Assembly (NCBI RefSeq): GCF_030815955.1
Contig: NZ_JAUSXK010000001.1
Coordinates: forward strand, 3,596,001-3,660,000
Direction of reading: 5' to 3'
From: Microbacterium murale
GTDB taxonomy: Bacteria > Actinomycetota > Actinomycetes > Actinomycetales > Microbacteriaceae
Length of the DNA: 64,000 nucleotides
Made by a program: the position numbers and the translations under genes
The notes under the pieces: model-generated
Databases searched by the model: none
Seen by the model: only the letters and a program-made list of their open reading frames with translations
Told to the model about the DNA's origin: nothing
Part shown: positions 19,968 to 21,215 of the stretch, piece after piece
Layout of the letters: the number at the start of each line of letters is the position of its first letter
Position numbering within the stretch: position 1 is the first letter of the stretch

Positions 19968-20047
19968 CCGAGACCCCAGTTTCGTACCGAGACCCCGCCG
20001 CATTCACGCGAACACGGCGGGGTCTCGGCAGTAATCGGGGGTTTCAG
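19968..20047. repeat. 80-bp quasi-palindromic element, copy A
   Basis: Ten-base arms CCGAGACCCC start at 19968 and 19987. The inverted arm GGGGTCTCGG starts at 20019, and a degenerate fourth arm (two mismatches) starts at 20038. The two inner arms extend to a perfect 14-bp hairpin (19987-20000 with 20015-20028) around a 14-base loop. The centre ACGCGAACA (20006-20014) is shared with copy B at the same offset. It lies 22 bp after ilvE and 100 bp before the AbiEi-like gene. Confidence 0.85.
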
Positions 20048-20147
20048 CGTCGGTCGGAGGGCTGCGACTCGTCCTGCACAAGCACGCGGGGCGCACGTGA
20101 GCTGAGGATCGAAGGCACAGGACGGCGGCAGCGGGCATGATCGCTGG

Positions 20148-21128
20148 ATGCCGAGACGGATCAACTTCGAACAGGCCGACGCGATGCTCAGGTCGCGCGA
20201 CTCCCTCGTCGCCACGGGGATCACCGACAGGCAGCTGCGCGCCCTCGTCGCCTCGGAAACCCTCATCCGCGTGCACCGAGGGTTCTACGTCGACGGCGAC
20301 TCGTGGCGTGAACTGTGGGCGGAGGGGCGGCATCTGCTGCGGGTCATCTCCCACGCCCGATCCAGTCCGGGAGAGTCTCCGGCGTTCATGCAGATGTCTG
20401 CGGGCGTGCTCTGGGGCCTGCCGCTGTACCGCGTGCCCGACGGGGTCGTTCACGCCCTCATCCAGGGGACCCGTCATACGCGCACGGTCGCCGGCATCGC
20501 GCGCCATGACATCGACGTCGCCGAGAACGACATCGTGGAGCGGCACGGTCTGCGCTGCACGTCGCTGGCGAGAACGGTCTTCGACATGGTCCGGACCGTG
20601 TCCCCGGAAGCGGCGATCTCCGCAGCGGACGCGGCGCTCAGAATGATCGCTGTGTCCGGTCAGGCTCAGGATGCCGTGGTTGCGGAGCAGTGGCGGGACG
20701 ACGTGCTGCGATTGGCGGCTCCTGGCCTGCGCAGCGTTCGCAAGGTGCGCTGGGCGGTGGGCTTCGCAGACGGTCGAGCGCAGCTTCCCGGCGAGAGCGT
20801 GAGCCGGCTGCAATTGTCGCGGCTGGGGTTCAGCGACATCGACCTGCAGGTGCACGTGGTCGGGGCGGAGGGCGACAACTACTTCATGGATTTCGGATTC
20901 CCCCGGTCGCGGATGTTCGGGGAGTTCGACGGCGAGGGCAAGTATCTTGAACCGGAGCTGCGCGCGACGCCGACGCCGGCCGATGCCGTACTGGCGGAGA
21001 AGCGTCGCGAGGACGATGTGCGCGGCGTCACGGGGTGGGGAGTTCGTCGCTGGGGCGGCATTCACATCAGGAGTGCCGACGCACTCGGCGCACGGCTGAC
21101 CGCATTCGGCATCCACCCACCCGGATGA
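20148..21128 (+). CDS. AbiEi-like antitoxin/nuclease-like two-domain protein
   Basis: A 326-residue protein. Residues 1-60 (ADAMLRSRDSLVATGITDRQLRALVASETLIRVHRGFYV) match the winged-helix N-terminus of AbiEi-type (type IV toxin-antitoxin) proteins. The middle (about 75-170) fits the AbiEi C domain (GVLWGLPLYRVPDGVVHALIQG... TSLARTVFDMVRT). The last 110 residues look like a DUF559/Vsr-type nuclease fold: Asp in YFMDFGFP, then GEFDGEGKY and a basic EKRREDDVRGVTGW helix, a possible D...ExK site. No separate AbiEii toxin gene is adjacent. Copies A and B of an 80-bp repeat flank the gene on both sides. CATGAT six bases before the ATG may be its -10 box. Function is unknown; a solo defence or regulatory role is possible. 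Confidence 0.75.
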   Translation: MPRRINFEQADAMLRSRDSLVATGITDRQLRALVASETLIRVHRGFYVDGDSWRELWAEGRHLLRVISHARSSPGESPAFMQMSAGVLWGLPLYRVPDGVVHALIQGTRHTRTVAGIARHDIDVAENDIVERHGLRCTSLARTVFDMVRTVSPEAAISAADAALRMIAVSGQAQDAVVAEQWRDDVLRLAAPGLRSVRKVRWAVGFADGRAQLPGESVSRLQLSRLGFSDIDLQVHVVGAEGDNYFMDFGFPRSRMFGEFDGEGKYLEPELRATPTPADAVLAEKRREDDVRGVTGWGVRRWGGIHIRSADALGARLTAFGIHPPG

Positions 21129-21135
21129 TTCTTCG

Positions 21136-21215
21136 CCGAGACCCCGTCTTGTTGCCGAGACCCCAGGGCCCCGACGCGAACAGCCAGGGGTCTCGACACG
21201 AAGCCGGGGTCTCGG
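21136..21215. repeat. 80-bp quasi-palindromic element, copy B
   Basis: Arms CCGAGACCCC start at 21136 and 21155, and inverted arms GGGGTCTCG(A) and GGGGTCTCGG start at 21187 and 21206. The offsets 0, 19, 51 and 70 equal those of copy A exactly, and the central ACGCGAACA is identical. By eye 56 of 80 positions match copy A without gaps. It begins seven bases after the stop of the AbiEi-like gene. Confidence 0.85.

Follow-up and report, generated by a model that had tools for sequence, protein, structure and literature searches.

As described in the available sections of PMC3116915, REPINs have conserved ends and a free, hairpin-forming middle in which compensatory changes occur. Throughout the parts of the literature examined, no enzyme other than the RAYT class is linked to REP palindromes (PMC3116915, PMC3733652, PMC6006769). 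Within the Actinobacteridae, the available part of PMC6006769 gives only subclass 1.1 of the RAYT-type Y1 genes. The CGTC-tagged REPs, palindromes of 20–40 bp from five phyla, seem to have no dedicated transposase, and a word search of the available text describing them found no mention of actinobacteria (PMC3733652). A different kind of pairing between protein and palindrome is given in the available sections on AbiEi, which binds 23-bp inverted repeats and represses its own promoter (PMC3985639).

The locus considered here lies in a 64-kb window (the whole stretch of Microbacterium murale DNA that was analysed), where two copies, A and B, of a four-arm quasi-palindrome bracket a gene for a protein with an AbiEi-like half and a nuclease-fold half. 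The pairing of this gene family with its elements is strong by every sequence comparison run, exceptions apart. A search of the open-access literature found no description of such a gene–palindrome association, and protein and element belong to no pairing described there.

RESULTS

Two four-arm elements flank the gene

Copy A (19968..20047, no strand) starts 22 bases past the ilvE stop codon and copy B (21136..21215, no strand) starts 7 bases past the stop codon of the enclosed gene. Both are in register where the original prediction had placed them, 1168 bp apart from start to start, and the ungapped likeness that it claimed amounts to 71% identity over 84 bp. Its arm offsets of 0, 19, 51 and 70 are right in both copies; its arms need two corrections, the fourth arm of A being CTGAAACCCC (2 mismatches) and the third arm of B TCGAGACCCC (1 mismatch). 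The arms of A are thus at 19968-19977 (+), 19987-19996 (+), 20019-20028 (-) and 20038-20047 (-, 2 mismatches), and those of B at 21136-21145 (+), 21155-21164 (+), 21187-21196 (-, 1 mismatch) and 21206-21215 (-). Between the inner arms of A, the fold gives an inner hairpin of stem extension and loop (19997..20018, no strand), which is supported by covariation of the matching columns, 30-38/43-51, over 110 family elements (see below). Folded as single-stranded DNA, A and B gave z values of -5.8 to -7.1 relative to shuffles, with 0/200 shuffles folding as well, and the RNA folds of the elements were also strong. When 46 window genes, taken from gene calls made in this analysis, were scored for similarity between their upstream and downstream flanks, the enclosed gene scored 24.0 and the next best 12.5.

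The enclosed gene encodes an AbiEi-like protein with a predicted nuclease half

The gene (20148..21128, + strand, 326 aa) has its start codon 100 bp from the end of A. Residues 11-208 (20178..20771, +) form an AbiEi-antitoxin-like half with an AbiEi-like DNA-binding fold. For this half the label AbiEi-like was borne out by a match to PADLOC AbiEi (E = 1.8e-10, residues 22-171); the Pfam AbiEi_4 match, at 22.7 bits, fell under the cut-off of 25. Residues 213-323 (20784..21116, +) have a Vsr/I-Bth0305I-like endonuclease fold, and E216, D248, E259, D261, K265 and D289 are invariant over 57 aligned members. The second half is a predicted nuclease with conserved acidic residues. The label DUF559 for this half was dropped, as it is absent among the Pfam matches; the nuclease family MTES_1575 was matched by 1/57 members (E 0.0059), a sequence search of the PDB gave one match that is not credible (E 0.43), and no NCBIfam model matched the protein.

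Three neighbouring genes were scanned, ilvE (one upstream) and an FAA hydrolase and an MFS transporter (two downstream), and no AbiEii toxin/nucleotidyltransferase, methylase or intron was found among them. A CTGCACA motif (20074..20080, +) lies 74 bp before the start codon and keeps its position in some family members: it occurs within 150 bp upstream in 32/90 members, mostly at -73 to -90, and its reverse complement in 1/90. It is possibly a promoter or operator. The M. murale genome contains a second paralogue (688,911-689,642). Upstream of it is a four-arm element whose arms read GAGACCGAGT, with a spacing of 19 and a score of 53 in the scan described below; downstream of it two arms are visible by eye, with a scan score of only 36.

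Flanks match their own gene

The gene family was present in 121/198 Microbacterium genomes (E ≤ 1e-40). The main set, drawn from 62 Microbacterium genomes, had 90 loci: 30 initial ones and 60 more taken roughly in order of E-value with multi-copy genomes favoured, so that it is not a random sample; one locus had no downstream flank, leaving 89 for comparison. Here and below, all genome and locus counts weight related genomes equally. Flanks were scored by comparing 350 bp of upstream sequence with 350 bp of downstream sequence and taking the best match without gaps. The median score for flanks of the same gene was 24 vs 10 for flanks of mismatched genes, and 69/89 loci exceeded the mismatched 95th percentile of 15. 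At 50/89 loci the gene's own downstream flank was unbeaten by that of any other gene. Within the 23 genomes that have at least two paralogues, the own downstream flank beat that of the paralogue in 66 of the 68 comparisons. The controls stayed low, the 45 other window genes reaching at most 12.5 and 0/68 neighbouring genes passing 15. Many of the genes without CCGAGACCCC among the loci listed also have four-arm elements, whose arms are different but similar on the two sides of a gene.

The four-arm architecture is conserved and its inner stem covaries

The flanks were also scanned for sets of four related arms without reference to the arm sequence, with spacings of 16-23 allowed and a threshold of 44 that was fixed before the result and is uncalibrated. 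This score was reached by 140/179 family flanks, by 0/235 shuffled flanks (two-base block shuffles) and by 1/72 other gene ends. Both flanks were four-armed at 60/89 loci, one flank at 19 and neither at 10. Arm spacing was 19 bp in 132 of the 140 detected elements, and the distance between inner arms was mostly 31, sometimes 20-21. Greedy grouping of the 73 loci with a defined arm gave ~28 arm types, many of which contain CGAG or a close variant. Some loci have mixed arms that appear in transition, such as L191, with three arms of AGCCCC type and one AGACCCC on each side, and L200. At L010/L182, L073, L079, L068 and L050, some elements carry at least three tandem arms with a pitch of ~19 bp, which suggests growth by duplication of a unit.

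To examine the filler, 110 unique CGAGACCCC-type elements were taken whose arms have no more than one mismatch, with related elements not down-weighted. That selection partly builds arm conservation into the set, which leaves the statistics of filler and stem as the informative ones. The inner stem pairs 30-38/43-51 covary, with z from 4.9 to 13.0 relative to shuffled 3' halves, and covariation of this strength argues that pairing is selected or enforced. The outer filler is mostly without covariation, with positions 13, 14, 16 and 17 near zero and a weaker excess at 11/70 (z 5.3), 12/69 (3.3) and 18/63 (3.9); it prefers TT at positions 14-15.

Dispersed copies in the M. murale genome

As the original prediction had said, the window holds no third copy; the 4.11-Mb single-contig genome, of which the window covers 3,596,001-3,660,000, nevertheless holds 11 four-arm elements, A, B and nine others. 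A pattern for half-elements gave 22 matches at 0, 1 or 2 mismatches (19, 2 and 1, respectively), which pair into the 11 elements, and the reversed pattern gave 0 matches in this genome at 0 mismatches and 5 when up to 3 were tolerated. Every one of the 11 elements is 2-22 bases away from a stop codon in the gene calls, several of them sitting between convergent genes, and their filler sequences differ from one another.

Since nine of the 11 copies lie away from the gene, proximity is not what links gene and element, and a link through proximity alone was ruled out. The prediction had held that the specific link would be lost if the genome contained many copies with no relation to the gene. On its face this is the situation found, yet the link holds, since arm sequence tracks the gene from genome to genome and from one paralogue to another. 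Spread by a RAYT was also ruled out, as Y1_Tnp (PF01797) was found in only 1/198 genomes (G041) and had 0 matches in M. murale; as a positive control, PF01797 matched in 5/14 named genomes.

Arm types follow the gene across the genus

Three arm types were searched for in the 198 Microbacterium genomes. We call a genome predicted for a type if gene flanks among the loci examined carry that arm, and count the remainder of the 198 as others. Half-elements of the CGAGACCCC type occurred in 40/198 genomes, 8/9 predicted and 32/189 others; the predicted genome that failed, G172, has variant arms and no exact half-element, and in G146 and G110 copies elsewhere are not separated from the gene flank. 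The CGACACCCC pattern occurred in 8/198 genomes (6/6 predicted, 2/192 others), and all six predicted genomes also have copies away from the gene. The CGAGTGCACG pattern occurred in 27/198 genomes (8/8 predicted, 19/190 others); in G173 the gene's own flank holds the sole copies, and the copies in G190 are not separated from the flank. The reversed-pattern controls for the arm patterns were 0 in the rows shown.

Outside the predicted sets lie 32/40, 2/8 and 19/27 of the pattern-bearing genomes, respectively. Six of the outside-set CGAGTGCACG genomes do carry the gene (G059, G075, G132, G165, G175 and G187). A search of 22 genomes with the CGAGTGCACG gene gave nine top-scoring relatives (52-70% identity), several of them already among the 90 loci, and each has at least one exact arm and at least five arms at one mismatch or fewer; the next 21 loci have no exact arm, though the first of these is also 52% identical. 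G060, G077 and G142 hold 15, 24 and 8 CGAGTGCACG half-elements, respectively, and have no relative at E ≤ 1e-25. Several of the half-elements in G060 and G077 are within ~100 bases of a contig start, so assemblies may be broken at the repeats, with cognate genes hidden as a result. G004 has four CGAGTGCACG half-elements and a relative (L448) that matches over 134 residues only (query 188-321), possibly a decaying gene with surviving elements.

Location, gain and loss

The gene occurs in many contexts, with up to 42 neighbour signatures over the 90 loci and 30 over the 60 both-flank loci, counts that are inflated by neighbours missing at contig or locus ends. An insertion sequence or composite transposon would be expected to have inverted ends in fixed orientation; the relative orientation of the flanking elements was direct at 33 loci, inverted at 25 and tied at 2 (n = 60). 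At the slots inspected, by eye and in diverged sequences, no target duplication was recognized, nor was a clean or single-event insertion. The simple two-ended mobile cassette, one of the options originally put forward, is less likely given that element orientation is not fixed and no target duplication was recognized. A cassette with direct repeats arising by insertion into a pre-existing element was weakened likewise by the variable orientation, although at one slot (in G185, below) an element does stand alone, with no gene.

The original prediction had proposed comparing orthologous loci that lack the gene, and this was done at the ilvE-FAA slot in 30 genomes, mostly picked for lacking the gene or having elements, with states judged by eye. 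No clean insertion was seen, and G185 has a single element there without the gene. The gene itself is at this slot in three of the 30 genomes. In G034 and in G017 there is one palindrome that resembles an element but is of another arm type. The hairpins of G041 and G001 have two arms, ilvE is not adjacent in G110, and the remaining genomes have short spacers or other hairpins. The phoU-gpmA slot, again judged by eye in 30 genomes, mostly holds an ordinary terminator-like hairpin or an element; the exceptions are G110, which seems to hold both, and G042, where the slot is interrupted by N.

Of 15 element regions in G148, nine have an element in the G029 counterpart, one of them by eye only, at ~84-92% identity, and four others have an orthologous G029 flank but no element by the arm rule. 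For six G148 sites the G029 counterpart was looked for where synteny was guessed to put it: an orthologous flank was obtained with L397, L399, L401 and L402, L400 could be aligned only outside the element, and L391 gave no counterpart. At three of the four element-less sites, G029 has 469-845 bp of other DNA vs about 90-200 in G148. The differences between G148 and G029 show gain or loss, in one direction or the other. The differing fillers, taken together with the nine of 15 sites common to both genomes, point to slow turnover, and selection at the level of the host could keep the arms. The L402 element of G148 (1595-1672) lies in an apparently divergent upstream region, not at a gene end.

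Range beyond the genus

A homologue at E ≤ 1e-15 was present in 164/248 genomes of the order (61/85 genera). Among the 28 loci analysed in the order, 21 beat the mismatched-flank 95th percentile: all five that are Microbacterium, and 16/23 in other genera, some of these through short matches. The four-arm scan reached 44 in 25/56 order-level flanks (the five Microbacterium loci included), with a spacing of 19 in 23. In Frigoribacterium, inspection by eye places a distant homologue (30% identity) between two elements whose arms resemble CGAGACCCC. Among the matches listed in the contig scan, the few from Streptomyces may be chance, and the Akkermansiaceae match (L050) was set aside as a pure 19-bp tandem array. 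Viral contigs gave 5 pattern matches and no relative.

DISCUSSION

The arms beside a gene are particular to it, change with it from species to species and from paralogue to paralogue, keep their 19-bp spacing and recur at other places in the genomes. Binding sites for the enclosed protein and a REP/BIME-like family had been put forward as separate options; as judged from sequence, they appear to merge into one REP-like dispersed family with arms that match the flanked gene. Our main reading, to which we give a probability of a little under 60%, is a REPIN/RAYT-like system whose enzyme is an unrelated nuclease, with the cognate gene between hairpin elements and with binding, cutting and copying as its presumed activities. 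The association of gene and element is well supported; cleavage, mobility and the direction of cause are what we infer from it. The AbiEi-like half would bind pairs of arms 19 bp apart, and the nuclease domain would nick or cut the hairpin or a target. Repair could then place copies of the element between other genes, in many cases at terminators, with the arms staying matched to the protein during copying.

The main rival is a terminator kept by the host with a dedicated binding protein, in which the elements would be selected bidirectional terminators or 3'-end structures and the protein an immobile, domesticated binding factor, either a regulator or a processing nuclease. The placement of all 11 M. 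murale elements just past stop codons, several between convergent genes, is as this reading would have it, as are the prevalence of terminator-like hairpins or elements at the phoU-gpmA slot, the G148 sites common to G029 and the strong RNA folds. However, it leaves unexplained why arms match the gene and each paralogue has its own, as well as the varied gene contexts and the invariant nuclease residues, and it does not account for the G148 element in an apparently divergent upstream region. We judge it unlikely. Elements at gene ends probably do act as transcription terminators also, and REPIN-like spread and a host-kept terminator may both be true in turn.

Far less probable is autoregulation only, with A and B as operators of the AbiEi-like protein. 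The position of A upstream of the start codon would suit it, and AbiEi is reported in the available sections of PMC3985639 to bind inverted repeats at its own promoter, but the downstream element and the nine dispersed copies would be unexplained and the three scanned neighbours include no AbiEii toxin. We give slightly less credence still to defence or self-recognition, i.e. a solitary nuclease that cuts by arm status, with the genomic elements as protected marks. While the AbiEi models matched by the first half belong to the PADLOC defence library, the methylase or toxin partner is absent among the three scanned neighbours, and we know of no such defence system with gene-matched flanks as a feature. 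Chance or base composition could be invoked because the sequence is GC-rich and has many short inverted repeats; it is already refuted by the shuffle, gene-end and reversed-pattern controls, and we assign it a negligible probability.

Returning to the REPIN/RAYT-like reading, a fuller version would make this an independent actinobacterial REP-type system, in which a Vsr/homing-like nuclease with an AbiEi-derived half for reading DNA would recognise arm pairs at a 19-bp pitch in the hairpin, with spread into gene ends by cutting or nicking and repair, and arms forced genome-wide to follow the specificity of the protein. This version we propose tentatively. A second, unrelated nuclease family with palindromes of its own would mean that the arrangement has evolved repeatedly, and would suggest a role for actinobacterial proteins that match AbiEi models. 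As many paralogues come with arms of their own, the family already provides a collection of protein–DNA specificity pairs. It also offers a handle on how arms stay uniform in repeats while many positions stay fixed.

The resemblance to described systems is partial in each case. With AbiE type IV toxin-antitoxin systems the locus shares the AbiEi-like DNA-binding fold, but here a nuclease fold is fused to it, the sites are dispersed and AbiEii is absent among the scanned neighbours. With the EDxHD/Vsr-like endonucleases it shares the Vsr-like fold; unlike I-Bth0305I and Vsr, the gene lies between two palindromes, with no intron or methylase partner among the scanned neighbours. Uptake-sequence pairs in the terminators of Neisseria and Pasteurellaceae are short fixed words that occur as inverted pairs after genes. 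The elements are likewise short fixed words inverted after genes, but they are present in far fewer copies, have four arms and have an arm type specific to the gene. Like the CGTC-tagged REPs, they are dispersed palindromes with no RAYT to go with them, and differ from them in architecture and in the presence of a flanked gene. Compared with REPIN/RAYT systems, the enzyme combines a Vsr/I-Bth0305I-like fold with an AbiEi-like half rather than being an HUH Y1 transposase, the element has four arms at a 19-bp pitch rather than two REPs, and the GTAG tetranucleotide is absent from the consensus of the 110 elements with 12-base flanks. In common with REPIN/RAYT systems, it has dispersed extragenic palindromes that match those beside the gene, a hairpin-forming middle with compensatory changes, as in the available sections of PMC3116915, and several families per genome, each with its own gene.
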